DNA from: Rhodopseudomonas palustris HaA2
GTDB taxonomy: Bacteria > Pseudomonadota > Alphaproteobacteria > Rhizobiales > Xanthobacteraceae
Reading direction: 5' to 3'
DNA: 64,000 nt
Assembly: GCF_000013365.1 (NCBI RefSeq)
Contig: NC_007778.1
Span: 310,001 to 374,000 of the forward strand
The notes beneath the pieces were generated by a model. The model saw nothing but the letters and a program-made list of their open reading frames with translations, was not told where the DNA came from and did no database searches. Each line of letters begins with the position of its first letter. The stretch's first letter is position 1. A program made the translations under genes and the position numbers. Below, in pieces: positions 30,254 through 44,341 of the stretch.

Positions 30254-31549
30254 TCAGCGATCGCCGAACGCCTGCAACGCCGCCGCGAGTTCCGGATGAC
30301 TCGCGGCATGCTCGCCGACCGGAATCCCGGCGGCGATTGCGTCCCACGCCTGTCGGAGACTGGCGGCGCCCGCCGCCGGTCCCATCGGGTGGCCGAACAC
30401 GCCGCGGCCTGGCACGAAGCCGAAATCGACGCTGCCGACCTTGCGATACACCCGCTCCAGCGTCGCGGCGGAATCGCTGCCGCCCGGCACCGGCAGGCAC
30501 GGTTTGATCGGCCCCATCGGTTCGAGGCAGGCGCGCACGCACTCCAGCACCTCGTGCTCCGGCGTCATCATCCGCGGCCCGAAGCCCGGCATGATCACCA
30601 CGTCGAAACCGGCCAGCCGCTGCAGCCGCGTCATCACCCGCGAATGGATTCCGTAAGTGGCGAGCCGGCTGAACGCGGCGATGAACGGGAAATGCGCGAT
30701 CAGCGGCACCGTGGCATGCCGGCGCAGCATCCGCACCGCCGACAGACCCACCGGCATCGCGTTGATCAGCAGCGCGCCGGCGCCGTTTGCCACCGCGACA
30801 TCGTGCAGCTCGATCAGCCGGTCCACTTCGTCGGTGATATTGGCGAGGTAGATTTTCGGCACCCCGGTCTCGGCCGCGGCCTTCCGGCAGGCGTCGCCGA
30901 GCAGCGCCGCGCGCTCGGCGAGCGGGCACCAGTCGACATCCGCCAGCATCTCGTCGTCCTTGGCGATATCGAGGCCGCCGCGCCAGCTCTGGTAACCGAG
31001 TTCGGCGAACGGCGCCGCCGGCAGCCCGATATTCGGCTTGATCACGCCGAAGAAGATCGGCCGGTCGAACGCCTGCAGCCGCTCGCGCAGGCCGGCGATG
31101 CCGAAGCGCGGGCCTTCGAACGCCGCGAGGTAGCTGTCCGGAAACCGGATGTCCTGCAGCCGGATCAGCGGGATGCCGGGCGAGAAGAACACCCCCTCGC
31201 CGCACACCGCCGACAGCAGATTCGGAATCTTCGGACCGAAATTGCGGTGGGGATGCGCGATCGTGACGCGGCAGGCGTGGACAGGCCCGCGCACCGCGCA
31301 TTCGACCGCCGTGGAGAAGCCCTGCCGCGCCTCGGCGTGAAGCTCCAGCACCTTCGCGGCGAAGCGCGGCCGGAAATCCTCGTCGATTCCGACCCGCCGC
31401 CATTGCGCGGTGGATTGCTCGCTGCACAGATGCGCCGCCGCCTCGCGCGGATCGCCGGCGCATTCGAAATCGAAATCGAGCTCGATGTAGTCGTCGGGGT
31501 TCAGCTCCGCGCGCGTCGCGTAGAAGCCCGCAATATCGTCCGGCGTCAT
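30254..31549 (-). CDS. RuBisCO-like protein (form IV)
   Basis: 431 aa from the ATG at 31549 ([13 protein letters not shown]). The large-subunit barrel is complete: [10 protein letters not shown] on strand 1, the metal-lysine loop [10 protein letters not shown] (Lys about 197, Asp 199, Glu 200), a conserved His in GIHSRV, and [14 protein letters not shown] near the end. In CO2-fixing RuBisCO the first loop reads KPK; here the second Lys is Asn (about 173), and the SGG phosphate loop is PGG. These changes rule out carboxylation and place it among RuBisCO-like proteins, which act as enolases or isomerases in sulfur metabolism where studied. Which subgroup cannot be settled here. Confidence 0.93.
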
Positions 31550-31573
31550 GGGGTCGTCCGCTCCAGATACCAA

Positions 31574-31604
31574 GCCGTCATACGCGGGCTCGACCCGCGG
31601 TTCC
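31574..31604. repeat. Decayed family A repeat fragment
   Basis: CCGTCATACGCGGGCTCGACCCGCGG resembles one half of the family A element with CTCGACC for CTTGACC. Lies between the RuBisCO-like and YjbQ genes. Confidence 0.55.
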
Positions 31605-31648
31605 ATCGCAAAGAGCCCCATCCTTTGGAGGCATAGGCCTGCAGCGGT

Positions 31649-32077
31649 CTAACCCTGCCCGATGATCTGCAATTCGACGCCGCGGCGCTCGCGCGGGCCG
31701 TCGAGCTCGATGAAGAAGATCGATTGCCATTCGCCCAGCACCAGCGCGCCGGCGGCAAGCGGGATCGTCTCCGATGAATTCATGAACAGCCCGATCAGAT
31801 GCGAATGCGCGTTGTCGCGGCCGTCGATCGGGGCGAGGTTGTGCAGATAGTCGCCGTCGCGCGGCGCGACGCGCTTCAGAAACGTCAGCATGTCGCGCTC
31901 GAGCTTCTCCTCGCGCTCGTTGACGTTGATCCGCGCCGTGGTGTGCAGGCAGCTCACGGTGACGAGGCCGTCTTTCAGCCCGCTGCCGGCGACGAAGCCG
32001 CGGACCTGCTCGGTGATGTCGATGATCTGGATCGGCGCCGTGGTGGCGAGTTCGATCCTGTGTCTGACGATGTTCAT
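31649..32077 (-). CDS. YjbQ family protein (secondary thiamine-phosphate synthase family)
   Basis: 142 aa from MNIVRHRIELAT. The family pattern LVTVSCLHTTARINVNE, HNLAPIDGRDNAHSHLIG and LGEWQSIFFIELDGPRERR is fully present, including the conserved His and Glu residues of the trimeric YjbQ/UPF0047 fold. E. coli YjbQ has weak thiamine-phosphate synthase activity; the true role is open. It is 99 bases upstream of the RuBisCO-like gene and on the same strand, so they may be co-transcribed. Confidence 0.9.
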   Translation of the reverse strand: MNIVRHRIELATTAPIQIIDITEQVRGFVAGSGLKDGLVTVSCLHTTARINVNEREEKLERDMLTFLKRVAPRDGDYLHNLAPIDGRDNAHSHLIGLFMNSSETIPLAAGALVLGEWQSIFFIELDGPRERRGVELQIIGQG

Positions 32078-32343
32078 CGCGGCATCCGGCGTTCGAAGTC
32101 GGGCGAGGTCGCCCGCGTGTGGAACGCGCAATGTAGGCGCACCGCCCGAATCGACGCAAACGCCGGGCCCACATGTTGGCCGAAGGAATGATGCGCGCGA
32201 GCGCCGGTCGCTTGACAGCGCCGCCGGGCTTGGCGATTGGACACCTCCGGCACGAATGTTTCTGTCCTTGTCTGCGGGAACCGCCCGGCTCGGATCTGCC
32301 GGGTTCGATTGCTTTTGCGAACCAGGGGCCGAACAGCACCAGG

Positions 32344-34326
32344 ATGAGGCCGACCTACCGCAGCGATATCGACGGATTGCGCGCCATCGCCGTGTTGCTG
32401 GTGATCGCGTTTCATGCCTTCCCGCATTCCGTGCGCGGTGGCTTCGTCGGCGTCGACGTGTTCTTCGTGATCTCCGGCTTCCTGATCACCTCGATCATCT
32501 GCCAGGCCCGACGCAGCGGCGACTTCAGCTTCGCCGTCTTCTATGCCCGCCGCATCAACCGGATCTTCCCGGCGCTGGCATTGGTGCTGATCACTTGCGC
32601 GGTCGCCGGCTGGTTCCTGCTGTTCCCGGTCGACTACCGCGACGCCGGCAAGGCGATCGGCTTCGGCGCCGCGTTTCTCTCCAATCTCGCGCTGCTGCAC
32701 GGCGCCGGCTATTTCGAGACCTCCTCCGAACTCGATCCGCTGCTGCATCTGTGGTCGCTCGGCGTCGAGGAGCAGTTCTATCTGTTGTGGCCGCCGGTGA
32801 TCGTGCTGGCCTGGCGGTGGCCACGCGGCGCGCTGATCGCCGCGCTCACGATCCTGCTGGCGTCGTTCGCCGCCAACATCGCACTGACGCCCGTCAACCC
32901 GCTGGCGGCGTTCTATTTGCCGGTGACGCGGTTCTGGGAATTGATGACCGGCTGCGTGCTCGCCCTTGCGGCGAATGCGGGGCCCGGCCGCGACATCACC
33001 TCGATCGCGGCGCTCGGCGTTGTGCGGAGGCTGTTCGAACGCCACGCGGCGGCGATCCGTGCCGCCTGCGCCTGGTTGGGGCTGGGGCTGCTCGCCGCTG
33101 GCGCGGCGTTGATCAGCAACGATCGCGGCTTCCCCGGCTGGTGGGCGGTACTGCCGGTGCTCGGCGCAGCGTTGCTGATTTTCGCCGGACCTTCGCCCTG
33201 GGTGAGCCGGTATCTGCTCGGCAACCGCGCGATGGTCTATGTCGGGCTGATCAGCTATCCGCTGTATCTGTGGCACTGGCCGCTGCTCGCCGCGATCCGG
33301 ATCGTCCGGTTCGGTGAAGAGCCGCCGCTGCTGATGAAGGCGATCACGATCCTCGTCGCCTTCGCCCTGGCGCATCTCACCTGGCGATTCATCGAGCCGC
33401 CGTTCCGCGCGCGCCCGAGCCGCCGCAAGACCGCGGCGGCGTTCGCCGCCGTGGCGATCGCCGGCATCGCCGGAGCCGGCATCTATGCGGCCAGCGGATT
33501 TCCGTCACGCTTCGGGCCCGACCTGCAGGCGATCCTCGGGGACCTGAACGCCGAAGCAACCGTCGCTTTTCGCGCCGGCGCATGCTTCTTCGAAGGAAGC
33601 GCGCAGTTTCAGGAGCAATGCGACGACGCCACGCCCGCGGATGCGCCGCGGGTCGTGCTGTGGGGCGATTCCCACGCCGCGCAGCTGTATCCGGGCCTGC
33701 GCGAATGGCAGCGGGCTGATAACAGCTTCCGGATCTCGCAATATACGACGGCCGGCTGCCCGCCGATCCTCGGCCTGCCCGACCCGCCGTCGAAGGTCTG
33801 CGCCGCCAACAACGCCATGGCGCTCGAGCGGCTGCGGACCTTGAAGCCCGACACCGTGATCATGGTGGCGCGGCAGTGGCACGACTATCACGGCCCCGAT
33901 CGCGACCCGCAGGCCGTCGACGAGATGATCCGCGCGACGCTCGCCGAGGTCCGGGCCACCGGCGTCCGGCGCATCGTGGTGGTCGGGATGTTTCCGAACT
34001 GGCGCACGCCGCCGCGACGTATTCTCGCCGGGTACTACCGCGCACGGGCGGCGGGGGTGGCGACGGCCGGGGCGATTCCGGAGCGGGATCGCAGTCGCCA
34101 TCTCGACTCGTCGCGCGCCGAGGAGAACGAAGGACTGCGGAGGTTCTTCGAAGCCGCAGGCGTCGCGTTCGTCTCGCCGACGTCGACCTATTGTGATCGC
34201 GACGGTTGTCTGCTGGCGGTGCCGCGCAGCAACGGCACGCCGGTGGTGTACGACGGCAGCCACCTGACCGCCGCAAGCTCGATCTTCTTCGTCCGCGAAA
34301 CCGCGCGCCAACTGTTCGGACGCTGA
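32344..34326 (+). CDS. OafA-type O-acyltransferase with C-terminal SGNH domain
   Basis: 660 aa membrane acyltransferase. The N-terminal acyltransferase-3 domain starts SDIDGLRAIAVLLVIAFH (catalytic His) and contains LDPLLHLWSLGVEEQFYLLWP; about ten membrane helices run to residue 395. The periplasmic C-terminal SGNH hydrolase-like domain (about 430-660) has VLWGDSHAAQLYPGL and the D-x-x-H pair in YDGSHLTA. Such fusions O-acetylate or O-acylate surface polysaccharides. No sugar-pathway genes are adjacent; its convergent neighbour is the TetR gene, 10 bases away. Confidence 0.93.
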   Translation: MRPTYRSDIDGLRAIAVLLVIAFHAFPHSVRGGFVGVDVFFVISGFLITSIICQARRSGDFSFAVFYARRINRIFPALALVLITCAVAGWFLLFPVDYRDAGKAIGFGAAFLSNLALLHGAGYFETSSELDPLLHLWSLGVEEQFYLLWPPVIVLAWRWPRGALIAALTILLASFAANIALTPVNPLAAFYLPVTRFWELMTGCVLALAANAGPGRDITSIAALGVVRRLFERHAAAIRAACAWLGLGLLAAGAALISNDRGFPGWWAVLPVLGAALLIFAGPSPWVSRYLLGNRAMVYVGLISYPLYLWHWPLLAAIRIVRFGEEPPLLMKAITILVAFALAHLTWRFIEPPFRARPSRRKTAAAFAAVAIAGIAGAGIYAASGFPSRFGPDLQAILGDLNAEATVAFRAGACFFEGSAQFQEQCDDATPADAPRVVLWGDSHAAQLYPGLREWQRADNSFRISQYTTAGCPPILGLPDPPSKVCAANNAMALERLRTLKPDTVIMVARQWHDYHGPDRDPQAVDEMIRATLAEVRATGVRRIVVVGMFPNWRTPPRRILAGYYRARAAGVATAGAIPERDRSRHLDSSRAEENEGLRRFFEAAGVAFVSPTSTYCDRDGCLLAVPRSNGTPVVYDGSHLTAASSIFFVRETARQLFGR

Positions 34327-34336: not shown

Positions 34337-34939
34337 TCACGCCGGCAGGATCGCCGCGCAAGCGCGGCCGGCGACATCGGCGGCGCCGGCGTCGCGCGTC
34401 ACCAGCGCCATCACGATGGCGCCGTCGATCACCAGCCCGAGCGTATGCGCCACCTGCGCCGGCTCGGCGATCTCGGCCTCGGTGCACAGCGCGGTCAGCC
34501 GGTCGTGGACGATGGTCTTGTGGGCAATCGCCAGGCTGCGCATCCGGTCGTCAGCCTTGTCGGATTCGCCGACCGCATTGATGAACGGGCAGCCGTAAAA
34601 ATCGGGGCGGCTGAACCAGCCCTTCAGCGCCGGGCCGATCCGCGCCAGCCGCTCGCGCGCGCTGCCGCCCGGCCCATCGATCTCGTCGATGAACCAGGTG
34701 CGCCAGCTCTGCCCCTCGCGCTGCAGCACGGCTTCGACCAGCCCGTCCTTGGAGCCGAACAGCTTGTACAGGGTGGTCTTGGCGGTACCGGCGTTCTCGA
34801 TGATGGCGTCGACCCCGACCGAGTTGATGCCGTAGCGGCAGAACAGCACGCGGGCGCTTTCGATCAGCCGATCGCGCGGGGACATCCGCACATCGGGCGC
34901 CGGCGAATCGATCGTGGGATGGGGCGCTGCCTGGACCAT
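34337..34939 (-). CDS. TetR family transcriptional regulator
   Basis: 200 aa. The N-terminal helix-turn-helix (about residues 22-68) reads SARVLFCRYGINSVGVDAIIENAGTAKTTLYKLF in pieces typical of TetR. The C-terminal ligand domain is of the type with ...FYGCPFINAVGE. Divergent from the osmC-like gene with a 268-base gap that carries two GAAyGGTCTGT sequences, likely operators. Probably represses the downstream sulfur-related cluster (inference). Confidence 0.92.
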   Translation of the reverse strand: MVQAAPHPTIDSPAPDVRMSPRDRLIESARVLFCRYGINSVGVDAIIENAGTAKTTLYKLFGSKDGLVEAVLQREGQSWRTWFIDEIDGPGGSARERLARIGPALKGWFSRPDFYGCPFINAVGESDKADDRMRSLAIAHKTIVHDRLTALCTEAEIAEPAQVAHTLGLVIDGAIVMALVTRDAGAADVAGRACAAILPA

Positions 34940-34986
34940 TCAGACGCAAATACCCCCGCCTCTGCCAAACTGCAATCCGGGAAACC

Positions 34987-35000
34987 GAATGGTCTGTTCG
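34987..35000. promoter_or_regulatory. Putative TetR operator half-site 1
   Basis: GAATGGTCTGTTCG shares GAAyGGTCTGT with the palindrome at 35152-35165. It lies 48 bases upstream of the tetR start. Confidence 0.4.
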
Positions 35001-35151
35001 CAACCTTGCTGACGCCGATGCAGGCAACCGAGAGGGCGATTTGACCGCAAAAGCGGCGCGCCTAATTGGCGAGCAGGCTTGTTTCTGCGGTCGCACCTCT
35101 GATTCAGTTGGCCTTTTCCAGATCGGCCCATCTGGCATGCTTCCTGCTAAT

Positions 35152-35165
35152 ACAGAACGGTCTGT
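35152..35165. promoter_or_regulatory. Putative TetR operator palindrome 2
   Basis: ACAGA-ACGG-TCTGT: perfect 5-base arms around a 4-base centre, 43 bases upstream of the osmC-like start. Related sequence near the tetR gene suggests both are contacts of the divergent regulator. Confidence 0.5.
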
Positions 35166-35207
35166 AGCCTAGATGCCGCCGGACCCACGGCAGCCAGAGG
35201 AGATCCC

Positions 35208-35780
35208 ATGACCAAAGCCGCCACCGCGATGACCGCCTGCCTCACCCCGGATAGCCCCGTCGCCATGACCGGATGCCTCGCGCCGATCGACAAGGCCGGG
35301 CTCGATGAGCTGATCGCCAAGGGCAAGGCCGATCCGACCGCGGTCAAGACGCTGAAGTGCAAGACCGTCGCCGAGGGTCGCTTCCGGCATCTCAATTTCG
35401 TCCGCACCCTGCCGCCCTACATCGTCGACGAGCCGCCGGGCCTGCTCGGCGACGACACCGCGCCGAACCCGTCGGAAGCCTCGCTGGCCGCGCTCGGCTC
35501 CTGCCTCGCGGTCGGCATCCACGCCAACGCGGTGGCGCGTGGCATCACCGTCTACACGCTCGAGATCGAACTCGAAGGCGACCTCAACATCACCGGCGTC
35601 TGGGGCACCGGCGACCTGTCCGAGAAGCCGGTCGGCTTCACCGACGTTCGCGCCAAGGTGAAGTTCGAGGCCGACCGTCCGCGCGAGGAACTCGACGCGC
35701 TGGTCGCGCATGCGCGGCTGTGGTCGCCGGTGGCGAACACCTTCTCCCGCCCGGTCAATCTCGACGTGACGATGGCCTGA
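35208..35780 (+). CDS. OsmC family protein
   Basis: 190 aa. The family core is NPSEASLAALGSCLAVG, with the peroxidatic Cys at about 99. The second, resolving Cys of OsmC/Ohr peroxidases (CPV motif) is replaced by Ser (about 173, WSPV), so it is not a classical peroxidase; OsmC-like proteins of this type accompany sulfur-transfer genes. Additional Cys at 11, 23 and 51 are in the N-terminal extension. Preceded by GGAG at good spacing and followed 30 bases later by the flavoprotein gene. Confidence 0.88.
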   Translation: MTKAATAMTACLTPDSPVAMTGCLAPIDKAGLDELIAKGKADPTAVKTLKCKTVAEGRFRHLNFVRTLPPYIVDEPPGLLGDDTAPNPSEASLAALGSCLAVGIHANAVARGITVYTLEIELEGDLNITGVWGTGDLSEKPVGFTDVRAKVKFEADRPREELDALVAHARLWSPVANTFSRPVNLDVTMA

Positions 35781-35809
35781 TCCCAGCCCTCCAACAGCGG
35801 AGCTGAGCC

Positions 35810-36940
35810 ATGCTGGATGTCCAGTCGATGAACACAGGCGATGCCGCGGCGCTTCCCGGCGCCGAGGTCGTCGAAGCGGTGCGCGCCTTGTCGGCGCGAG
35901 AGCTGCCGTCGCTGGTCAACCGGATCGATGTCGACGGTTACTATCCGGAAGATCTGATGCGCGCCTTCGGGCGTCTCGGCGCCTATGCGCATCACCTTCC
36001 GGGCAAGAGCCCGAGCGTCGATCTGATGACCTCGATCAACGCCATGGCGGCGGCCGGCGAGCACTGCCTGTCGACGTCGTTCTGCATGTGGTGTCAGGAC
36101 GCGCTGGCCTGGTACATCTACGCCTCCGACAACGAGCATCTGCGGACCGGCATCGGCCCGCAGATCGCCAGCGGAGCGGTGCTCGGCGGCACCGCGCTGT
36201 CGAACCCGATGAAGTCGCTGTTCGGCATCGAGCCGATGCGGCTGAAGGGCCGCCGCGTCGCCGGCGGCTATGTGGTCAAGGGCCTGCTGCCCTACGTCTC
36301 CAATCTCGGCCCCGATCACTATTTCGGCGGCATCTTCGAGGTCGAGGACGGCGGCACGACGCGCAACGTGATGGCGGCGATTCCCTGCGCCGCCGAAGGC
36401 CTGAGCCTCGCCGACAACGCGAAGTTCACCGCGCTCGACGGCACCCGCACCTTCGCGGTGCAGATGCGCGACGTGATGGTGCCGGACAATTGGGTGATCG
36501 CCGATCCGGTCGACGACTACATCAAGCGCATCCGCGCCGGCTTCATCCTGCTGCAGGCCGGCATGGCGTTCGGCCTGATCCGCGACTGCCTGCGGCTGAT
36601 CGAGCAGTGCAAGAGCCCGCTCGGCCACGTCAACAAATACCTCGACGTCCAGGCCGAGCCGCTCGCCGAAGGGCTCGCCGCCATGGAGGCCGAGGTCGCG
36701 CGCCTCGCCGCGACGCCGTTCGAAAGCGATCGCGACTATTGGCGGGCGGTGATCGAGGCGCGTCTGGCCGCCGGCGACGCCTCGGTCGCGGCGGCTCATG
36801 CCGCGATGCTTCATTGCGGCGCGCGCGGCTACGTCGCCGGCGCCACCGCGCAGCGCCGCCTGCGCGAGGCTTACTTCGTGGCGATCGTGACACCCGCCAC
36901 CAAGCAGCTCCGCAAGATGCTGGCCGACATGGCGCATTAG
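35810..36940 (+). CDS. Acyl-CoA dehydrogenase-like flavoprotein
   Basis: 376 aa with an acyl-CoA dehydrogenase fold: an N-terminal helical domain, a middle beta domain (LSNPMKSLFG, GGYVVKGLLPYVSNL, MVPDNWVI), and a C-terminal helical bundle (RAGFILLQAGMAFGLIRDC). It looks closest to the divergent DszC/SfnB-like monooxygenases that use reduced flavin on organosulfur compounds, not to beta-oxidation enzymes; the context supports that. The catalytic base is not identifiable by eye. Specific substrate unknown. Confidence 0.75.
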   Translation: MLDVQSMNTGDAAALPGAEVVEAVRALSARELPSLVNRIDVDGYYPEDLMRAFGRLGAYAHHLPGKSPSVDLMTSINAMAAAGEHCLSTSFCMWCQDALAWYIYASDNEHLRTGIGPQIASGAVLGGTALSNPMKSLFGIEPMRLKGRRVAGGYVVKGLLPYVSNLGPDHYFGGIFEVEDGGTTRNVMAAIPCAAEGLSLADNAKFTALDGTRTFAVQMRDVMVPDNWVIADPVDDYIKRIRAGFILLQAGMAFGLIRDCLRLIEQCKSPLGHVNKYLDVQAEPLAEGLAAMEAEVARLAATPFESDRDYWRAVIEARLAAGDASVAAAHAAMLHCGARGYVAGATAQRRLREAYFVAIVTPATKQLRKMLADMAH

Positions 36941-37079
36941 TTCGCGCGCGGTCGACGCGGAGGCGCATTCGCCGTCCGCGTGCCGTTTCCCGCGCGCGCG
37001 GCAACAGTCACCACAGGACGCTGCCCTGTGCCCGAGACACTCCCAGCCGACGTTCAACGATGCACACAGGAGCGAACCC

Positions 37080-37961
37080 ATGACTGAGAAGGTTCTTGTC
37101 ACGCCCGCCGAACTCTCCGAAATGCTTGCCTCCCCGACCACCGTGGTGATCGACACCCGCAATCCCGAAGCCTATGCGGCCGGCCACGTTCCCGGCGCCG
37201 TCAACATCCACGAGATCTTCACGTACCTCGCGACCTCGACGCCCGAGGGCGTCAAGGAGATGAGCGAGAAGTTCGCTGCCGCGTTCGGCGCCGCCGGCCT
37301 GTCCGGTGAAGAGACCGCGGTGATCTACGAACAGTCGATGAACACCGGCTTCGGCCAATCCTGCCGCGGCTATGTGCTGCTGACCTATCTGGGCTATCCG
37401 AAGGTCAAGATCCTGCATGGTGGCTACGCGGCCTGGACCGCGGCCGGCCTGCCGAGCACCACCGATGTGCCGACGCCGACGCCGAAGACGTTCGCGGTCG
37501 ATCCGGAAGCGGCCTCGATCCTGGTCGATCTGGAATCGATGAAGGCGGCGGTCGCGGACCAGTCCAAGGTCAAGCTCGACACCCGCGACGTCGACGAATG
37601 GATCGGCGAAAGCTCGTCGCCCTACGGCAAGGACTTCTGCCCGCGCAAGGGTCGCATCCCCGGCGCGGTCTGGATCGAATGGTACCGCATGATGAAGCCG
37701 TCGGCGGCCGGCCCGATGTTCAAATCGTCGGCGGAGATTCTCGCCGAATGCGCCAGCGTCGGTATCACGCCGGACACCCCGGTCGTCCTCTACTGCTTCA
37801 AGGGTGCCCGCGCCTCCAACACGCTGGTCGCGCTGAAGGAAGCCGGCATCAAGGACGTCAGCCTGTATTTCGGCTCCTGGAACGAATGGTCGCGCGACCC
37901 GTCGCTGCCGATCGAGGAAGGCGCGCCCTATGCGGCGCCGTCGCTGATGGCGGCGGAGTAA
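37080..37961 (+). CDS. Sulfurtransferase with two rhodanese domains
   Basis: 293 aa. Domain 1 (about 9-125) keeps the rhodanese fold (TVVIDTRNPEAYAAGHVPGAVN) but its active loop reads YEQSMNTGFGQS, without Cys at the usual place, so it is inactive. Domain 2 (about 145-275) has the active loop LYCFKGARASN with Cys about 239. This asymmetric pair is the standard thiosulfate/3-mercaptopyruvate sulfurtransferase layout. No signal peptide, so cytosolic. Sits between the flavoprotein and the ABC importer genes on the same strand. Confidence 0.92.
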   Translation: MTEKVLVTPAELSEMLASPTTVVIDTRNPEAYAAGHVPGAVNIHEIFTYLATSTPEGVKEMSEKFAAAFGAAGLSGEETAVIYEQSMNTGFGQSCRGYVLLTYLGYPKVKILHGGYAAWTAAGLPSTTDVPTPTPKTFAVDPEAASILVDLESMKAAVADQSKVKLDTRDVDEWIGESSSPYGKDFCPRKGRIPGAVWIEWYRMMKPSAAGPMFKSSAEILAECASVGITPDTPVVLYCFKGARASNTLVALKEAGIKDVSLYFGSWNEWSRDPSLPIEEGAPYAAPSLMAAE

Positions 37962-38037
37962 TCGCGCGGCGGGGCCGGTCGCGCTGGCCGGCTCCGCCGA
38001 TCCGCAAGGAACCCTGTTCGAGGAGCGGCTGCAGGCG

Positions 38038-38919
38038 ATGCCGGCATTTCAACCCAAAAAGGCCTGGCCCGGGGCGCATATCGCCATCCAGGGCGTCAGT
38101 CACCGCTACCGCCGCGCGAGCGGCAACGCGCTGAGCGGCATCGATCTCGAGATCAAGCCCTGCGAGGCGGTGGCGCTGGTCGGGCGCTCCGGCTGCGGCA
38201 AGTCGACCTTGCTGCACATCATCGCCGGACTGGTCGCGCCGAGCATGGGCGAGATCCGCATCGACGGCGCCAGGGTCGAGGGCGCATCGCCGCGCTGGGT
38301 CGTGATGTTCCAGCAGCCGCATCTGTATCCGTGGATGAGCGTGGCGCAGAATGTCGGGCTCGGGCTGAAATTCGCCGGCCGCCCGCGCGCGGAGATCGCC
38401 GCGCGGGTCGGCGAATTGCTGCATCTCGTCGAACTCGACGGCTACGCCGAGCGCAACGCGCAGGACCTGTCCGGCGGCCAGCAGCAGCGCGTCGCGCTGG
38501 CGCGCTCGCTCGCGACCTGCCCGGAAGTGCTGCTGCTGGACGAGCCGTTCTCCGCCCTCGACGCCGTCACCCGCCGCGCCTTGCAGCGCGACGTCCGCCG
38601 CATCGCCGAGGAAATGAAGATCACGCTGGTGATCGTCACCCACGACATTCCGGAAGCGGTGACGATGGCGGATCGCGCGGTGATCATGCGGTCCGACCCC
38701 GGCCGCATCGCCGAGATCGTGCCGGTCGCGGTCGATCGCAGCGACGCCGATCCGGAGCGCCGGGCGGCCAGCATCCAGGCCGCGCAGGCGCGGCTGCAGG
38801 CGGCGTTCGAACGCGCCACCGGCCCGGCCGCGCCGGACGCATCGCTGACTCCCGACTCCCACAACCAAGAAACGCCACGGACGGAACCGCTCAAGATCGT
38901 CGCTGCCGGCCACCGCTGA
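38038..38919 (+). CDS. ABC importer ATPase, nitrate/sulfonate/taurine type
   Basis: 293 aa ATPase of the SsuB/TauB/NrtD group. Walker A GRSGCGKST, Q-loop VVMFQQPHLYPWMSV, signature LSGGQQQRVALARSL, Walker B LLLDEPFSALD, H-loop VTHDIPEAVTMADR. About 50 extra residues follow the core. Encoded 76 bases after the sulfurtransferase gene and just before the binding protein and permease, completing one transporter. Confidence 0.93.
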   Translation: MPAFQPKKAWPGAHIAIQGVSHRYRRASGNALSGIDLEIKPCEAVALVGRSGCGKSTLLHIIAGLVAPSMGEIRIDGARVEGASPRWVVMFQQPHLYPWMSVAQNVGLGLKFAGRPRAEIAARVGELLHLVELDGYAERNAQDLSGGQQQRVALARSLATCPEVLLLDEPFSALDAVTRRALQRDVRRIAEEMKITLVIVTHDIPEAVTMADRAVIMRSDPGRIAEIVPVAVDRSDADPERRAASIQAAQARLQAAFERATGPAAPDASLTPDSHNQETPRTEPLKIVAAGHR

Positions 38920-38931
38920 AAGGATCTCGTA

Positions 38932-40176
38932 ATGTGCATCAATTGCGGAAATGACATCGTTCATGCCGATGACGATCGCTTCCGGTTCGCGATCAACCGC
39001 CGGCAGACGCTCGACATGCTCGCCGCCGGCGGCCTCGCCGCGCTCGGCACCATGCTGGGCGGCTTCGGCCAATCCGCACGCGCGGCCGACGACGACGTCG
39101 TCCGCATCGGCTATCTGCCGATCACCGACGCCACCGCGCTCCTGGTCGCGCACGGCATGGGCTACTTCAAGGACGAGGGTCTCGAGGCCGAGCGCCCGAC
39201 GCTGATCCGCGGCTGGTCGCCGCTGGTGGAGAGCTTCGCGGCCGGCAAGTTCAACCTGGTGCATCTGCTCAAGCCGATCCCGGTGTGGATGCGCTACAAC
39301 AACAACTTCCCGGTCAAGATCATGGCCTGGGCCCACACCAACGGCTCCGGCGTCGTGGTCGGCGGCGAGAGCGGCATCGCGTCGTTCAAGGATTTCGGCG
39401 GCAAGCAGGTCGCGGTGCCGTTCTGGTACTCGATGCACAACATCGTGCTGCAATACGCGCTGCGCAAATCCGGCATCAAGCCGGTGATCAAGGGCCAGGG
39501 CGAGACGCTCGCGGCCGACGAGTGCAATCTGCAGGTGATGGCGCCGCCCGACATGCCGCCGGCGCTCGCGGCCAAAAAGATCGACGCCTACATCGTCGCC
39601 GAGCCGTTCAACGCGCTGGGCGAAACCAAGGCCGGCGGCCGGATGCTGCGCTTCACCGGCGACATCTGGAAGAATCACCCCTGCTGCGTGCTGTGCATGA
39701 ACGAGGAGGTGACCAGAAAGAAGCCGGAATGGACCCAGAAGGTGATGAACGCCCTGGTCCGCGCCGAGATCTACGCCAGCGCCAACAAGAAGGAAGTCGC
39801 CAAGCTGCTGTCGAAGGACGGCGAAGGCTATCTGCCGCTGCCGGCGCCGGTGATCGAGCGCGCGATGACTTACTACGACGACAAGACCTATGGCGAGAGC
39901 GGCGCCATTACCCATCCGGACTGGAAGCTCGGCCGGATCGACTTCCAGCCCTGGCCGTATCCGTCGGCGACCAAGCTGATCGTCGGCGCGATGAACGAGA
40001 CGGTGGTCTCGGGCGACACCACCTTCCTGAAGAAGCTCGATCCGGAATTCGTCGCCAAGGATCTGGTCGACTATCACTTCGTCAAGCAGGCGATGACGAA
40101 GTACCCGGACTGGAAGACATCGCCGAGCGTCAATCCCGACGATCCGTTCGCCCGGACCGAGGTGCTGTCGCTGTGA
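38932..40176 (+). CDS. ABC importer substrate-binding protein, NrtA/SsuA-like, Tat-type signal
   Basis: 414 aa. The N-terminus has an unusual extension with MCINC, then NRRQTLDMLAAGGLAALG with twin Arg at 23-24 and a cleavage site near SARA/AD (51), consistent with Tat export. The mature part is an NMT1/SsuA-like periplasmic fold (VVRIGYLPITDATALLVAHG...). The ligand class (nitrate, sulfonate, thiamine precursors) cannot be read by eye; neighbours favour an organosulfur compound. The stop overlaps the permease start in GTGA. Confidence 0.9.
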   Translation: MCINCGNDIVHADDDRFRFAINRRQTLDMLAAGGLAALGTMLGGFGQSARAADDDVVRIGYLPITDATALLVAHGMGYFKDEGLEAERPTLIRGWSPLVESFAAGKFNLVHLLKPIPVWMRYNNNFPVKIMAWAHTNGSGVVVGGESGIASFKDFGGKQVAVPFWYSMHNIVLQYALRKSGIKPVIKGQGETLAADECNLQVMAPPDMPPALAAKKIDAYIVAEPFNALGETKAGGRMLRFTGDIWKNHPCCVLCMNEEVTRKKPEWTQKVMNALVRAEIYASANKKEVAKLLSKDGEGYLPLPAPVIERAMTYYDDKTYGESGAITHPDWKLGRIDFQPWPYPSATKLIVGAMNETVVSGDTTFLKKLDPEFVAKDLVDYHFVKQAMTKYPDWKTSPSVNPDDPFARTEVLSL

Positions 40177-41006
40177 GCCTCGATCTGACGATCGACGACG
40201 CCCCGGCACCGGCGGCGGCGGCGCGAAACGCCGCCTTCGCCGGCCGGCTGCGCAGCTCCGGCCATATCGCGCTCGGCATCGCGGTGCTGCTCGGCGTGTG
40301 GTGGATCGGCGGCTTCATCGTCGCCTCCGATCCGCGCACCGCGAATTTCGCCGACTTCGCCCCACAGCCGACCTTCGAGCGGCTGTGGCAGATGCTGATC
40401 AGCGGCGAGGCGGCCAAGATGGCGTGGCCGAGTCTCGGCCGGATCGCCGGCGGGCTCGCCTGGGCGATCGCGCTCGGCGTGCCGCTCGGCATTCTGGTCG
40501 GCCGTTTCCGCGGCATGCGCGAGGCGAGCTCGGTGCCGTTCCAGTTCCTGCGGATGATTTCGCCGCTGGCCTGGATGCCGATCGCCGTGATGGCGTTTGC
40601 GAGCTGGAACGCCGCGATCGTGTTCCTGATCGGCGTGGCGGCGATCTGGCCGATCCTGTTCTCGACCGCGCACGGCTTCCGTCGGATCGACCCGGCGTGG
40701 TTCAAGGTCGCGCGCAATCTCGGCGCCCGGCCGTGGCACATGCTGTTCACCATCATCGTGCCGGCGATCATGCAGGATTCGCTGGCCGGCATCCGGCTCG
40801 CCGTCGGCGTCGCCTGGATCGTGCTGGTGCCGGCCGAATTCCTCGGCGTCACTTCCGGCCTCGGCTATGCCATCAACGACGCCCGCGACACGCTGGAATA
40901 CGACCGCCTCGCCGCCACCGTGGTGATCATCGGCCTGATCGGCTTCGCCCTCGACTTCCTCTGCGAACGCGCCGTCAAACGCGCCAGCTGGGCAAGGGAG
41001 GAGTGA
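40173..41006 (+). CDS. ABC importer permease, SsuC/TauC-like
   Basis: 277 aa starting at GTG 40173, which overlaps the stop of the binding protein, indicating translational coupling. About six helices: first IALGIAVLLGVWWIGGFIV (about 31-49), then LAWAIALGVPLGILV and others. The cytosolic EAA loop reads ARNLGARPWHMLFTIIVPA. Completes the importer. A terminator follows at 41049. Confidence 0.92.
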   Translation: MSLDLTIDDAPAPAAAARNAAFAGRLRSSGHIALGIAVLLGVWWIGGFIVASDPRTANFADFAPQPTFERLWQMLISGEAAKMAWPSLGRIAGGLAWAIALGVPLGILVGRFRGMREASSVPFQFLRMISPLAWMPIAVMAFASWNAAIVFLIGVAAIWPILFSTAHGFRRIDPAWFKVARNLGARPWHMLFTIIVPAIMQDSLAGIRLAVGVAWIVLVPAEFLGVTSGLGYAINDARDTLEYDRLAATVVIIGLIGFALDFLCERAVKRASWAREE

Positions 41007-41131: not shown

Positions 41132-41207
41132 GGTGCCGCAAGAGGGATTCGAACCCCCACCCCCAGTCAGTACGAATGACGTGCTCTAGCAGGTGCATTA
41201 TTTCGGC
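41132..41207 (-). pseudogene. Decayed tRNA-Thr(CGT) copy
   Basis: Closely matches the intact tRNA-Thr at 44073-44148 but with a mismatch in the acceptor (GCCGAAA vs TTGCGGC), a damaged D arm, a lost pair at the base of the anticodon stem (CGTCA-TTCGTAC-TGACT), an enlarged variable region, and ACCT in place of ACCA at the 3' end. Similarity extends about 40 bases past the tRNA's 5' end. Same orientation as the intact gene, so the two form direct repeats around the alginate-type genes. Confidence 0.8.
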
Positions 41208-41265
41208 GACCACGAGAGGGATGATGCTCCGCCCAAAAGCGCTGATCTTAAAAGCACCGGCTCAG

Positions 41266-42390
41266 CTACTCGCTCTCTCGCGCGTCGGCGATCGACGAGA
41301 CGTGGCGCTCGACCAGTTCCTCGATGATCAGGTCGGGCGCTTCGCGATCGATGGTCGGCTGCAGATCGCGCCACGGCGTGAAGCCGGAGCGGGCGATATG
41401 GACGATTTCTCCGAAGCTCTGCGACAGATAGGGCATGATCCAGTCGGAGAACGAGTCGCCGATATAGATCACCTTGTACTTGGCGCCGGCGCAGTGCGTT
41501 CGGGCGATCGACAGATTCGGTGACAGCCGCTCGAACGGGGTTCTGGTGACGTCGCAGCGGCTGGCCGCCGGGTCGACCTTCCGGGTTTGCTCGACCCAGG
41601 GGAGATTGGCCATGTCGGCGAGCCCGCCCTTCATCTCGCCCGGCACCGAAAACTGGCGGCGATCGAGCTGGACGATCGGCACCTCGGGCAGCGGCAGCGC
41701 CGCCATCAGCGCGCGGTAGCCGAGATAGGCGCCCCAATCGGTCCAGTGGGTGTCGTCCTTGTAGTAGACCAGCCCGTCGGCCTTGCCCTGCAACAGCGCG
41801 GGGCGCGGATCGACCACCGGCAGGCCGGCGGGCCGGGCGACGGCGAGCAGCTGATCGAGCTGCGAAGGTCCGCCGCGCCGCGTCGGAAACCGCGGCATGT
41901 GTTCGGGATAGATGCTGTGCTTGTCGGGCGCGATGATCAGCACATAGGCGGCGCCGAGCTGTTTCGCCCGGCCGACGCGGCGCGTCAGCGAATCGCGCGC
42001 GTCGTCGAGCTGCGCGCCGCTGAGCGGGCGCTTGTTGGCATACAGTTCGAGCGACTCCTCGCCCGCATAGAACAGCCAATCGTCCCGGCCGAGGATGACC
42101 CGGTCGGACGGCAGCCGCCCGAGCATCAGCGCGTTGATGTTGGTGTTGAGCCGCAGCAGCAGCTTGCGCAGCCCGAAATGGTCGTTGAAGTAATCGTCGA
42201 AGCGTTGCGGAAAGCTCTCCCACTCCGCCAGCGAACGCGGCCAGCCCGGCAGTTGCGCGAACATCCGGTTTTCGCCGCCGACCGCGGCCTGGCGGAACGC
42301 CGACGCGGCCAGGCCGACGGCGGAGAACAGCACCACCAGGCCGATCATGGCGCCGGCATAGATCCGGGTCGTCAAAGAGGCGCGGCGCAT
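41266..42390 (-). CDS. AlgJ/AlgX-like polysaccharide O-acetyltransferase, SGNH type
   Basis: 374 aa. An N-terminal membrane anchor (IYAGAMIGLVVLFSAVGLAA) leads into a periplasmic domain of the AlgJ/AlgX fold: FNDHFGLRKLLLRLN, GRDDWLFYAG, the Asp-x-His pair in YYKDDTHWTDWGAY, and the Ser block VIYIGDSFSDW. It takes acetyl groups passed across the membrane by an MBOAT partner, encoded 2 bases upstream. No alginate or cellulose synthesis genes are near, so the polymer acted on is unknown. Confidence 0.88.
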   Translation of the reverse strand: MRRASLTTRIYAGAMIGLVVLFSAVGLAASAFRQAAVGGENRMFAQLPGWPRSLAEWESFPQRFDDYFNDHFGLRKLLLRLNTNINALMLGRLPSDRVILGRDDWLFYAGEESLELYANKRPLSGAQLDDARDSLTRRVGRAKQLGAAYVLIIAPDKHSIYPEHMPRFPTRRGGPSQLDQLLAVARPAGLPVVDPRPALLQGKADGLVYYKDDTHWTDWGAYLGYRALMAALPLPEVPIVQLDRRQFSVPGEMKGGLADMANLPWVEQTRKVDPAASRCDVTRTPFERLSPNLSIARTHCAGAKYKVIYIGDSFSDWIMPYLSQSFGEIVHIARSGFTPWRDLQPTIDREAPDLIIEELVERHVSSIADARESE

Positions 42391-42392
42391 CG

Positions 42393-43865
42393 CTAGAACC
42401 TGAAATAGATGAAGGGATTATAGGTGCCGGCCGCGACCTGGCTGCAAGCCAGCAGCCCGACCGTCAGCAACACGACCAATCTCAGGCCGAGCACCCGGCC
42501 GCCGTCCGCATCGAGGCGGACCTCGCCCAGCGGTGGATGCAGCACACCCTCGCGCTGGCCGGCGCGGCAGCGCCAGTCGGAGGTCAGCCGGCTGAACATT
42601 CCGGCGCTGGCGAGGCTGCCGACGATCAGGCTGCCGATCACCAGCGGATCGACATAGCGCAGCGCGTCCAGCGACGGCGCGCCGCCACCGCCGCCGAACA
42701 TCGTCTGAAGGTATAGCATCGCCTGGTGCACGTCGGCGGAGCGGAAGAACACCCAGGCCAGCGACACCACGGCGAGCGTATAGAGGTGGCCCAACGGCCG
42801 CGGCAGCCGGGCCAGCAGCCGCGCCAGGCCGATCCGTTCGAGGATCAGGAAGCATCCATGGATCATGCCCCAGACCACGAACGTCCAGTTGGCGCCGTGC
42901 CACAGCCCGCAGATGAAGAACACCACGAGCAGATTGAAGTAGATCCGCCAGTTGGCGACGCGGCTGCCGCCGAGCGGGATGTAGAGATAGTCGCGTAGCC
43001 AATTGGAGAGGGAAATGTGCCAGCGCCGCCAGAATTCCTGGATCGACCGCGACAGATACGGGTAGTTGAAGTTCTCCAGAAAATGGAAACCGAAGATCCG
43101 CGCCAGCCCGATCGCCATGTCCGAATAGGCGGAGAAATCCAGATAGATCTGCAGCGTGTAGCAGAGCACGCCGAGCCAGGCGGCGCCCGGGCTGAGCTCG
43201 GCGACCGGTAGCGCGAAGATCTTGTCCGCGACCTCGCCGAGCGGATTCGCCAGCAGCATCTTCTTGCCGAACCCGGCCAGGAACCGCTCGATGCCCGATG
43301 CGCATAATTCCAGCATCACGGTGCGCCGGGTGAGCTGCCGATAGATGTCGTGATAGCGGATGATCGGGCCGGCGATCAGCTGCGGGAAGAACGCGATGTA
43401 CAGCGCGAAATCGACCGGCCGCCGCTGCGCGGTCGCGACGCCGCGGTAGACGTCGATCACATAGGACAGCGCGTGGAAGGTGAAGAACGAGATCCCGAGC
43501 GGCAGATGCGGTGAGACGACGGTGACCGGCGCCACGCCGATCGCCGCGAGCAGGTCGTTCAGATTGGCGATCAGGAACTCGGAATATTTGAAGAACGCCA
43601 GCAGCCCGATGTTCAGCACCACCGCGCCGGCCACCACCGCCTTGCGTTGCCGCGGCGCGTCCAGCGCGTCGAGCGCCAGCCCGAGCAGCCAGTTGGCGGC
43701 GATCGAGGCCAGCATCACCACAAAGAAGAAGCGCTCGCCCCAGACGTAGAAGACGATGCTGGCGACCAGCAGGATGGCATTGCGCAGCGACCGCGGCACG
43801 CTCCAATAGCAGAGCAGCAGCAGCGGCATGAACAGGAACAGAAAGACGGGCGAACTGAACAGCAT
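42393..43865 (-). CDS. MBOAT O-acyltransferase, AlgI-like
   Basis: 490 aa with about ten membrane helices. The family features are there: LPLGISFFTFHALSYVIDVYRG, FPQLIAGPIIRY, SIQEFWRRWHISLSNWLRDYLYIPLGG, and the catalytic His in CGLWHGANWTFVVWG. It moves an acyl (acetyl) group from the cytosol to the AlgJ-like partner downstream. The pair forms a two-gene operon lying between the two tRNA-Thr copies. Confidence 0.95.
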   Translation of the reverse strand: MLFSSPVFLFLFMPLLLLCYWSVPRSLRNAILLVASIVFYVWGERFFFVVMLASIAANWLLGLALDALDAPRQRKAVVAGAVVLNIGLLAFFKYSEFLIANLNDLLAAIGVAPVTVVSPHLPLGISFFTFHALSYVIDVYRGVATAQRRPVDFALYIAFFPQLIAGPIIRYHDIYRQLTRRTVMLELCASGIERFLAGFGKKMLLANPLGEVADKIFALPVAELSPGAAWLGVLCYTLQIYLDFSAYSDMAIGLARIFGFHFLENFNYPYLSRSIQEFWRRWHISLSNWLRDYLYIPLGGSRVANWRIYFNLLVVFFICGLWHGANWTFVVWGMIHGCFLILERIGLARLLARLPRPLGHLYTLAVVSLAWVFFRSADVHQAMLYLQTMFGGGGGAPSLDALRYVDPLVIGSLIVGSLASAGMFSRLTSDWRCRAGQREGVLHPPLGEVRLDADGGRVLGLRLVVLLTVGLLACSQVAAGTYNPFIYFRF

Positions 43866-44072: not shown

Positions 44073-44148
44073 TGGTGCCGCAAGAGGGATTCGAACCCCC
44101 GACCCCGTCATTACGAATGACGTGCTCTACCAGCTGAGCTATTGCGGC
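44073..44148 (-). tRNA. tRNA-Thr (anticodon CGT)
   Basis: 76 bases on the minus strand: acceptor GCCGCAA/TTGCGGC, D arm AGCTC-AGCTGGTA-GAGC, anticodon arm CGTCA-TTCGTAA-TGACG, T arm GGGGG-TTCGAAT-CCCTC, encoded CCA. All stems are intact. Confidence 0.97.
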
Positions 44149-44341
44149 GACCTCGGGCGGGTGATGCGCCGCCCGAAAACGGGGGGCCGAAACTCGGCCC
44201 CGGAAACACCGGCCTTCTGATATCGGCCGGCGGGCGGATTGGCAAGAACCACCGGCCGCGGGATTGTCCGGAAACGGCCGGTCAGGCGATGCGCGGCGCA
44301 GTCCCGGCCTTGCGACGCTGTTGCGCGTCCACCGGCGCCCG

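Follow-up and report, generated by a model that had tools for sequence, protein, structure and literature searches.

A conserved OsmC, flavoprotein, rhodanese and ABC importer cluster of Rhodopseudomonas palustris HaA2 as a proposed module for thiocyanate uptake and conversion

Introduction

To our knowledge, the only enzymes known for thiocyanate use are thiocyanate hydrolase and the thiocyanate dehydrogenase (TcDH) of sulfur oxidisers, the latter being a periplasmic copper enzyme that serves the energy metabolism of these organisms. The scnABC clusters of Thiobacillus thioparus and Thioalkalivibrio thiocyanodenitrificans, as outlined in PMC5328954, unite a NitT/TauT importer with sulfur carriers and cyanase, as does the system considered here, but have thiocyanate hydrolase (COS pathway) as their central enzyme, whereas a flavoprotein and an OsmC protein are proposed for that role below. 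According to the same paper, the TcDH pathway of Thioalkalivibrio paradoxus yields cyanate and sulfur in the oxidation state of elemental sulfur, which is the outcome proposed here too, although the cluster described here has a flavoprotein at its centre, accompanied by an importer. Thiocyanate is also recorded there as a nitrogen source for heterotrophs of several genera, with the warning that cyanase activity is no proof of the cyanate route (PMC5328954). The NrtABC/CynABD importers with CynS, which take up and break down cyanate, share the importer superfamily and the cyanase partner but lack OsmC, flavoprotein and rhodanese, and a separate copy is present in the HaA2 genome.

Parts of the layout are also found in more distant systems. 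The genes PA2328-PA2331 of Pseudomonas aeruginosa are annotated to include an NrtA-like binding protein, an ABC ATPase and an acyl-CoA dehydrogenase (entries in PMC10687435 and PMC8466066), and the Synechococcus elongatus plasmid pANL (NC_004073.2) carries flavoprotein, ATPase, binding protein and permease genes in that order. Here, a seven-gene cluster is described from a 64,000-nucleotide stretch of Rhodopseudomonas palustris HaA2 (NC_007778.1, positions 310,001 to 374,000; hereafter the window), together with its relatives and its possible role.

Results

All seven genes at 34337-41006 were confirmed as real and in place, and the main Pfam family of each scored above its cut-off (Table 1). 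These results bear out the gene set of the sequence-only reading of this DNA, in which a divergent TetR gene is followed by genes for OsmC, flavoprotein, tandem rhodanese and importer. The plus-strand spacings from OsmC to permease are 29, 139, 76, 12 and -4 bases, the first of which had been given as 30, with the others as previously stated. The reductase gene that lies 3' of the flavoprotein in the named loci described below is absent from the window.

Table 1. Features of the cluster, in window positions
Feature	Position	Strand	Basis
TetR-family repressor, divergent	34337..34939	-	PF00440/PF16925 over cut-off
Imperfect second operator copy AACCGAATGGTCTGTT	34983..34998	.	near TetR start; core with 2 mismatches
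Palindrome TACAGAACGGTCTGTA, probable TetR operator	35151..35166	.	just upstream of OsmC; conserved 14-base core
OsmC-like protein	35208..35780	+	PF02566; alignment of 26 proteins
Acyl-CoA-dehydrogenase-fold flavoprotein	35810..36940	+	PF02771 N-terminal domain; AlphaFold2/Foldseek; own-genome alignment
Tandem-domain rhodanese	37080..37961	+	two PF00581 stretches; invariant CFKGAR loop
ABC importer ATPase	38038..38919	+	PF00005
Substrate-binding protein, Tat-type, NrtA/CmpA/SsuA superfamily	38932..40176	+	PF13379; PDB sequence/Foldseek neighbours
ABC importer permease	40173..41006	+	PF00528

The acyl-CoA-dehydrogenase fold that had been read from the flavoprotein sequence was upheld by PF02771 and by an AlphaFold2 model (pLDDT 89) with Foldseek TM values of about 0.8 to short-chain and isobutyryl-CoA dehydrogenases. 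Beta-oxidation enzymes are its nearest solved structures, a grouping that had been named in advance as speaking against an organosulfur role, but neither of the two known positions of the catalytic Glu of acyl-CoA dehydrogenases carries an acid when aligned with an isovaleryl-CoA-dehydrogenase-like protein of the HaA2 genome. Thr361-Pro362 is invariant in all 66 aligned proteins. The suggestion of a DszC/SfnB-type enzyme found no support in a profile comparison with the SfnB model TIGR04022, which did not match the window flavoprotein at E<=1e-3.

The OsmC protein, described earlier as having a single Cys, has four (11, 23, 51 and 99), but only Cys99 is invariant in an alignment of 26 OsmC proteins that includes the window's, so that the description holds for the conserved residue and fails for the count. 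All 26 have Ser at the place that is presumably that of the second (resolving) Cys of the two redox cysteines of OsmC/Ohr proteins, and at other loci the OsmC position is occupied by CMD/AhpD-type proteins. The rhodanese has sulfurtransferases as its nearest solved structures, and its two rhodanese domains, of which the C-terminal carries the Cys loop, match the layout of the TST/MST type; it would be expected to transfer sulfur. The claim of one active domain agrees with the location of the invariant CFKGAR loop, with active-site Cys239, in the C-terminal domain only, but is qualified by a second Cys, Cys95, which is invariant too in the alignment of 17.

The Tat-type signal claimed for the binding protein agrees with a twin-Arg motif at residues 23-24, whereas its assignment to a sulfonate importer was not upheld. 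Binding protein and permease show sub-threshold SsuA/SsuC similarity, with the former below the SsuA-family cut-off (TIGR01728, 107.2 bits vs 163.5), and SsuA is absent from its 12 PDB sequence matches at E<=1e-3, which comprise a S. aureus protein, NrtC/CmpC, NrtA, CmpA and two others. The top match is the S. aureus binding protein (3un6), and NrtA, NrtC, CmpA and CmpC make up 9 of the 12; Foldseek with a modest-quality model (pLDDT 69) ranked CmpC and NrtA highest, followed closely by SsuA. By these comparisons the binding protein appears closer to nitrate/bicarbonate binders than to sulfonate binders, and the grouping which the sequence-only reading had set against itself is therefore largely what the PDB and Foldseek neighbours display.

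Flavoprotein loci of relatives were sampled as 47 surveyed and 80 named loci, and neighbours were counted over 133 loci. All seven genes occur together in 7 of the surveyed loci (L055, L056, L057, L087, L088, L090 and L096), and their order and content recurred in additional families of this order and this class, the comparison outside the genus for which the sequence-only reading had asked. OsmC adjoins the flavoprotein in 45/47 surveyed and 77/80 named loci, and a reductase does so in all 80 of the latter. Judged from the seven full sets and the recurrence across families, the gene set, with rhodanese and OsmC beside flavoprotein and importer, is a conserved unit beyond chance, contrary to the earlier caveat that the genes might not be kept together. 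The OsmC-flavoprotein pair is carried by Alpha-, Beta- and Gammaproteobacteria, including seven Alcaligenaceae-type loci in which OsmC, flavoprotein and reductase lie beside unrelated metabolic genes. In two loci (L053 and L054) the importer is missing although the first four genes have been retained, and the rhodanese is not near in 54 of the 80 named loci, in some because the contig ends.

TetR is likely a dedicated regulator of the cluster, being near the flavoprotein in 34 of the 47 surveyed relatives, and would bind the palindrome in the shared promoter region. Of 36 relatives, 31, importer-first loci (L087, L088 and L096) included, have the 14-base core between TetR and its neighbour gene with no more than one mismatch, 19 of them with none, and its sole exact match in the HaA2 genome is the site upstream of OsmC. 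The stretch of the second operator copy was found again in L053-L057. The signal sensed by TetR would probably be the substrate or a product.

Cyanase lies within 9 kb of the flavoprotein in 16/47 surveyed and 40/80 named loci, the other 40 named loci including some in which the contig ends, and in 34 of the 48 named loci flanked by 7 kb or more on each side; it is near in five of the seven full loci. In the HaA2 genome and the same-genus loci L053-L056 it is unlinked to the cluster, the one HaA2 cyanase being at a second locus, NrtABC-cynS, whose sigma-54 regulator shares 68% identity with that beside the pair in L095. Across 149 family genomes, cyanase accompanies the flavoprotein (E<=4e-74) in 35 of the 38 that encode it and is present in 71 of the 111 others (Fisher p 0.0007, kinship ignored). 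L061 and L091 are examples of family relatives with no Ssu-like importer but with an NrtABC importer and cyanase next to the pair. The loci of Amphritea (L160) and Neptuniibacter (L164) bridge these arrangements by gene content, with the importer type, rhodanese, OsmC, flavoprotein, reductase and cyanase all together and with binding proteins (67% and 66%, respectively) and rhodaneses (67% and 65%) identical to this degree to the window's. As a counter-argument to thiocyanate use, the linked NrtABC-cynS may do no more than take up cyanate next to a unit that responds to cyanide or stress.

The widest-recurring non-core neighbours are a gene with the metallo-beta-lactamase fold, in 24 loci of which two entered the count twice, and TauE/SafE, in 14; 11 loci have both. 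The former resembles the human persulfide dioxygenase ETHE1 and matches the dioxygenase part of Blh with 330 bits (whole-protein cut-off 625); the HaA2 genome has two such persulfide-dioxygenase-like genes.

Within 9 kb, the 13 loci of a distant form (L100-L112) contain no cyanase and no rhodanese. From annotation and gene order, PA2328-PA2331 probably belong to this form, their order fitting that of L106-L111. Distant group B differs from the window cluster in flavoproteins only 24-28% identical, a CMD protein in place of OsmC, an AraC regulator in five loci and no rhodanese. On pANL, a DUF4242 protein replaces OsmC, the flavoprotein is 31% identical (tblastn), and rhodanese and cyanase were not found in the 19 kb stretch; the plasmid also carries srpI and cysteine-synthesis genes. 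PA2328-PA2331 appear in an HCN-induced list, and in the NaOCl tests described with it, which have no bearing on cyanide, none of their mutants differed (PMC10687435). PA2328-PA2330 fall in a mutant of P. aeruginosa, as do sulfur genes (PMC8466066), and a P. aeruginosa isolate degrades thiocyanate, more fully when spiked with cyanide (PMC4697911).

Discussion

The cyanase, persulfide-dioxygenase-like and sulfite-exporter (TauE) neighbours of the relatives suggest a substrate yielding cyanate and sulfane sulfur, and therefore thiocyanate, an inorganic pseudohalide, rather than the organosulfur compound supposed earlier. On balance we consider it fairly probable that the cluster is a module for thiocyanate uptake and conversion. 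The NrtA/CmpA/SsuA-type importer would bring thiocyanate into the cell, flavoprotein and single-Cys OsmC, proposed as the converting enzyme, would turn it into cyanate and sulfane sulfur on a protein cysteine, the rhodanese would hand this sulfur on to assimilation or oxidation, and cyanase, at the second HaA2 locus beside its own NrtABC importer, would convert cyanate into ammonia and CO2. The cyanase that such a route requires is available in HaA2, unlinked, and is linked in many relatives. The sequences themselves establish the gene content and its conservation, the partner genes, the conserved palindrome and the loss of both the acyl-CoA-dehydrogenase Glu and the resolving Cys of OsmC; the substrate, the chemistry, the way the sulfur flows and the binding by TetR are inferred.

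Among the alternatives, organosulfur or sulfonate use would combine an SsuABC-like importer with flavin-dependent C-S cleavage and transfer of sulfur to rhodanese and OsmC. The SsuA/SsuC similarities, the SsuA structures near the modest-quality binding-protein model and a weak SfnB match of the group-B flavoprotein L109 (45.7 of 430.9 bits) are consistent with it, but no SsuD-type, SfnB-type or other known sulfonate-cleaving enzyme was found among the seven genes (Pfam and SfnB model), and the recurrent cyanase, the NrtA-type importer beside the pair elsewhere and the reported HCN induction are left unexplained. Sulfonate cleavage yields sulfite and no sulfane sulfur, and a persulfide dioxygenase would therefore not be needed; even with PA2328-PA2330 listed among sulfur-assimilation genes (PMC8466066), this reading appears improbable. 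Cyanide detoxification, in which the flavoprotein would act as a monooxygenase from HCN to cyanate for cyanase, the rhodanese would convert cyanide to thiocyanate and the importer would serve cyanate or another anion, is suggested by the cyanase linkage, the reported HCN induction of PA2328-PA2331, the rhodanese within the cluster and the reductase adjoining the flavoprotein in all 80 named loci. However, HCN passes membranes uncharged, and therefore a dedicated anion importer would not be needed, persulfide dioxygenase and TauE would have no role, and the listing with sulfur genes and the srpI and cysteine-synthesis setting on pANL favour a sulfur substrate, making this explanation unlikely.

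Another C-N-S compound (isothiocyanates, organic thiocyanates or thiourea derivatives), with thiocyanate or cyanate only a later product, would need the same neighbour genes, and in Pseudosulfitobacter a gene annotated as 2-hydroxychromene-2-carboxylate isomerase, a glutathione-transferase-like family, follows the rhodanese. We nevertheless give this little credence, with no glutathione transferase or isothiocyanate hydrolase among 20 neighbour-cluster representatives (Pfam) and a binding protein that seems to group with small inorganic anion binders. Least probable is defence against peroxides or hypothiocyanite with OsmC as a thiol peroxidase: the OsmC family and the CMD/AhpD-type proteins in its place elsewhere would fit, but the protein lacks the Cys that acts as the resolving residue in OsmC/Ohr peroxidases, and we know of no peroxide defence that includes a dedicated anion importer, cyanase or persulfide dioxygenase. 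PA2327-PA2330 do not come up in the main text of a transcriptome study on HOCl/HOSCN (PMC7950407).

For the preferred thiocyanate module, a more specific version is offered tentatively and is itself doubtful, namely that OsmC and flavoprotein jointly constitute a thiocyanate-splitting enzyme of a new type. The reductase-fed flavoprotein would oxygenate thiocyanate to hypothiocyanite, which the lone OsmC cysteine would trap as Cys-S-SCN; hydrolysis would free cyanate, and the remaining cysteine persulfide would be collected by the rhodanese. No description of an OsmC-flavoprotein pair splitting thiocyanate was found in the literature. If true, the pair would supply the enzyme that is missing from the cyanate route by which heterotrophs use thiocyanate, and a distant form of it would also occur in cyanide-producing Pseudomonas and in Synechococcus.

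If the broader proposal is right, it supplies a concrete two-protein candidate for thiocyanate use in Alpha-, Beta- and Gammaproteobacteria, could account for use or detoxification of this pollutant by many ordinary bacteria, gives meaning to clusters whose annotation stops at OsmC, acyl-CoA dehydrogenase and nitrate-type ABC transporter (the cyanide-induced PA2328-PA2331 perhaps among them), and is relevant to the clean-up of mine waste water. Neither the thiocyanate hydrolase gamma subunit (TIGR03887) nor a TcDH-kind protein (Pfam) was found among the seven genes. Methylorubrum thiocyanatum has both the OsmC-flavoprotein pair and a thiocyanate hydrolase gamma subunit, and because of the latter its phenotype is uninformative on a thiocyanate role of the pair. 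In HaA2, an NHase-alpha protein scores 187.7 of 291.45 bits with TIGR03887 and lies above the cut-off as nitrile hydratase alpha.

Organization and conservation of the cluster

Thiocyanate (SCN-) conversion is proposed, with moderate confidence, as the putative function of the seven-gene cluster, in which a divergent TetR regulator precedes genes for OsmC, a flavoprotein, a tandem rhodanese and an importer consisting of ATPase, binding protein and permease. All seven genes were recovered at the positions assigned to them by the sequence-only reading, and the main Pfam family of each scored above its cut-off. The plus-strand genes are spaced by 29, 139, 76, 12 and -4 bases and are separated from the TetR gene by a gap of 268 bases; no Rfam family, riboswitch or other RNA, reached its gathering score within the cluster. 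Coordinates are collected in the table, the HaA2 genome being a single contig of 5,331,656 bases.

Coordinates of the cluster and of the other features discussed
Sequence	Feature	Position	Strand
Window	Bradyrhizobiaceae sRNA BjrC174	17537-17735	+
Window	RuBisCO large-chain-family protein	30254-31621	-
Window	UPF0047 protein	31649-32131	-
Window	Acyltransferase-SGNH gene	32173-34326	+
Window	Seven-gene cluster	34337-41006	
Window	Palindrome upstream of OsmC	35151-35166	
Window	Stretch without match in L053 and L054	~37.97-41.13 kb	
Window	Partial copy of tRNA-Thr end	41132-41238	
Window	AlgX/MBOAT O-acyltransferase gene	41266-43865	-
Window	Intact tRNA-Thr	44073-44148	
Window	Stretch matched by the partial copy	44074-44179	
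HaA2 genome	Sigma-54 regulator and NrtA-NrtB-NrtC-CynS	near 2.34 Mb	
HaA2 genome	Second operator-like site, one mismatch (L207)	G000:C1:3743846-3743859	
L117 (Neisseria gonorrhoeae)	CMD protein, flavoprotein and reductase match	5398-7056	
L205 (genome G897)	Thiocyanate hydrolase gamma subunit and beta-type partner	873-2522	

The flavoprotein was searched for in 149 family, 297 order and 398 phylum genomes, and 60 neighbourhoods, fewer than all those listed, were fetched. The 47 surveyed loci of the close form (L053-L099) omit flavoprotein matches in G143, G116 and contig 91 of G077 and fragments in G004 and G001, and the 13 loci of the distant form (group B, L100-L112) were fetched out of more listed. 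A second scan, of named genomes, covered the best 80 of 540 relatives; three surveyed loci (L093, L084 and L095) were taken as the same places as L158, L152 and L123, and the two sets overlap by at least three. Because the basic script used for gene calling overlooked known genes at some loci, neighbour counts are lower bounds.

Across the surveyed loci, flavoproteins were 39-91% identical and OsmC lay immediately upstream in 45 of the 47, with rhodanese (34 loci), TetR (34), a window-type binding protein (13) or an NrtA-type one (18) within 9 kb. The full seven-gene content was present in seven (L055, L056, L057, L087, L088, L090 and L096), four of which, all from other families, carry the importer first, in the order TetR, then ATPase-binding protein-permease-OsmC-flavoprotein-rhodanese. 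The set is thus also kept together outside the genus, and the possibility, allowed for in the sequence-only reading, that these genes are not conserved together does not hold. Among the named loci (best 80 of 540), 77 had OsmC immediately before the flavoprotein and a flavin reductase immediately after it; a sigma-54 regulator (56 loci), an NrtA-type importer (43), rhodanese (26) and a window-type binding protein (10) also occurred within 9 kb. Two same-genus loci, L053 and L054, have no importer and no match to the corresponding stretch of the window, an absence that counts against the proposed function and may reflect insertion or loss at this site.

Association with cyanase and sulfur genes

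Cyanase was encoded within 9 kb in 16 of the 47 surveyed loci, including five of the seven with the full set, and in half (40/80) of the named loci, or 34 of the 48 flanked by 7 kb or more on each side (both from the best 80 of 540). In L057 the cyanase gene comes immediately after the permease, and in L090 after the rhodanese. In L160 (Amphritea) and L164 (Neptuniibacter) a single stretch carries the window-type importer together with genes for rhodanese, OsmC, flavoprotein, reductase and cyanase, and plasmids of Marinobacter and Acetobacter bear the OsmC-flavoprotein pair with an importer and a gene annotated as cyanase. In a phylogeny of 66 flavoproteins, cyanase linkage changed at least nine times on well-supported branches and has therefore been gained and lost repeatedly; the window flavoprotein falls in a supported clade of 19 together with the cyanase-linked L087, L088, L090 and L096. 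In family loci such as L061 and L091 there is no Ssu-like importer, and NrtABC and cyanase instead lie beside the pair, suggesting a similar small anion. Cyanase is unlinked to the cluster in the HaA2 genome, where a sigma-54 regulator stands beside NrtA-NrtB-NrtC-CynS, as it is in the four loci retrieved from the same genus; this counts against the proposed function. At the genome level, cyanase was found in 35 of the 38 family genomes with the flavoprotein versus 71 of the 111 others (149 genomes; Fisher p 0.0007, kinship ignored), with G001 and G004, which have flavoprotein fragments and cyanase, counted as without flavoprotein.

To find recurrent neighbours, every gene outside the core was clustered across 133 loci. 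The two most widely recurrent across groups were a metallo-beta-lactamase-fold gene in 24 loci (22 distinct, since two of the same-place pairs are both among the 24) and a TauE/SafE exporter in 14, the two occurring together in 11. The metallo-beta-lactamase gene scores 330 bits against the dioxygenase portion of Blh, a bifunctional protein with a full-length cut-off of 625, and in the PDB matches human ETHE1 and 4ysk, a P. putida persulfide dioxygenase. Persulfide dioxygenases convert persulfide to sulfite, which TauE-type proteins export; the HaA2 genome has two persulfide-dioxygenase-like genes. A short-chain dehydrogenase cluster spanned 13 loci, mostly of one clade, and a 15-locus cluster was discarded as a gene-calling artefact, being antisense to the reductase gene in 12 of 12 members checked. 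Seven Alcaligenaceae-type OsmC-flavoprotein-reductase loci (L134, L136, L138, L139, L143, L146 and L147) have unrelated neighbours, namely malate/lactate-dehydrogenase, isopropylmalate-dehydrogenase-like, cupin and beta-lactamase-family genes; these speak against thiocyanate conversion, which leaves their context unexplained.

Binding protein and enzymes

Nine of the 12 PDB sequence matches of the binding protein were NrtA, NrtC, CmpA or CmpC, the first match being an S. aureus binding protein, and SsuA was not among the 12. Foldseek with a binding-protein model, modest because its alignment held only six sequences, ranked CmpC and NrtA highest and gave SsuA, too, as one of the leading matches.

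The flavoprotein model was good (pLDDT 89) and has the acyl-CoA dehydrogenase fold. A beta-oxidation enzyme, which this fold would fit, was rejected because the catalytic Glu is absent: when it is aligned to a protein from this genome that resembles isovaleryl-CoA dehydrogenase, no acid stands at either catalytic position. The SfnB-like identity suggested earlier was not borne out, as there was no match to the SfnB model. Thr361-Pro362 is invariant in all 66 aligned proteins. In every named locus (80/80, best 80 of 540) the flavoprotein adjoins a reductase of the rubredoxin- or ferredoxin-reductase class, suggesting an electron-consuming reaction such as oxygenation; no reductase gene adjoins the window flavoprotein. 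OsmC has a single invariant Cys, with Ser at the place of the second peroxidase Cys. A selenium role is not favoured, with OsmC_like_Se (46.3 of 95 bits) and ExtH (77.3 of 200 bits) far below cut-off.

In group B, a CMD/AhpD-type protein was near in 12 of the 13 loci and no OsmC match lay near the flavoprotein in any; none had cyanase or rhodanese within 9 kb, which counts against thiocyanate conversion. A Neisseria gonorrhoeae locus (L117) has a CMD protein beside a flavoprotein of 41% identity, together with a reductase match; the fetched stretch contains no importer, and this is perhaps a minimal form of the system.

Proposed thiocyanate conversion and alternative substrates

Cyanase implies a substrate ending as cyanate, while rhodanese, persulfide dioxygenase and sulfite exporter imply sulfur at the sulfane level; SCN- is proposed because it is the simplest compound with both. 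The sequence-only reading had taken the cluster for uptake and cleavage of, probably, an organosulfur compound, of which the conserved unit and the involvement of sulfur stand, the substrate now being likely thiocyanate and not an organosulfur compound. SCN- would be converted to hypothiocyanite, which would be trapped on OsmC Cys99, and hydrolysis of the trapped adduct would yield cyanate and persulfide, a detailed route that we infer only tentatively and consider rather doubtful. No description of such a system was recognised among titles and abstract openings of the open-access literature, outside which most subscription papers lie.

The strongest rival is oxidation of cyanide to cyanate, which would need cyanase too and would fit induction by HCN, but the importer and persulfide genes count against it. 

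Judged by annotation, Pseudomonas PA2327-PA2332 probably share the gene order of L106-L111, an AraC regulator and then CMD-flavoprotein-ATPase-binding protein-permease. PMC10687435, citing Frangipani et al. 2014, lists PA2328-PA2331 as genes that endogenous HCN induces. In PMC8466066, PA2328 (NrtA-like), PA2329 (ABC ATPase) and PA2330 (acyl-CoA dehydrogenase) are among 42 genes altered in a mutant, of which 30 have a link to sulfur. A P. aeruginosa isolate is described in PMC4697911 as degrading SCN- to sulfate and ammonium, more completely with added cyanide.

The Synechococcus plasmid pANL carries flavoprotein-ATPase-binding protein-permease, with srpI and cysteine-synthesis genes on the same plasmid. 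Sulfur-regulator mutants of the pANL-bearing strain reportedly fail on thiocyanate. The SrpI compartment is induced by sulfate starvation, as stated in PMC8049743. The scnABC cluster, as outlined in PMC5328954, has like supporting genes (NitT/TauT importer, sulfur carriers and cyanase) but a different central enzyme. Methylorubrum thiocyanatum, for which a reference title in PMC5328954 gives thiocyanate as a nitrogen source, carries the pair (L128), and the flavoprotein occurs in 37 of 111 genomes of its genus (E ≤ 1e-60). As a natural test this species was dropped, because genome G897, a 100% match to L128, also encodes the gamma subunit of a thiocyanate hydrolase (360 bits to TIGR03887) with a beta-type partner.

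Regulation

OsmC is preceded by the palindrome TACAGAACGGTCTGTA, of which an imperfect copy occurs near TetR. In 31 of 36 relatives the interval from TetR to the adjacent gene contains the palindrome's 14-base core with no more than one mismatch (exact in 19); these include the importer-first loci L087, L088 and L096, with one mismatch each. The other five relatives have two or more mismatches. An operator search of the HaA2 genome returned one exact match, at the cluster, and one further site with a single mismatch. TetR is probably a dedicated local regulator, since the core is conserved in relatives and has a single exact match in the genome.

Flanking features

Shortly after the permease is an 85% identical partial copy of a tRNA-Thr end, the intact tRNA-Thr lying further downstream in the window. 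Both cluster flanks carry acyltransferase genes (acyltransferase-SGNH and AlgX/MBOAT types), and upstream a RuBisCO large-chain-family protein, which looks RuBisCO-like, adjoins a UPF0047 protein. Elsewhere in the window, the sRNA BjrC174 was matched at 162 bits.
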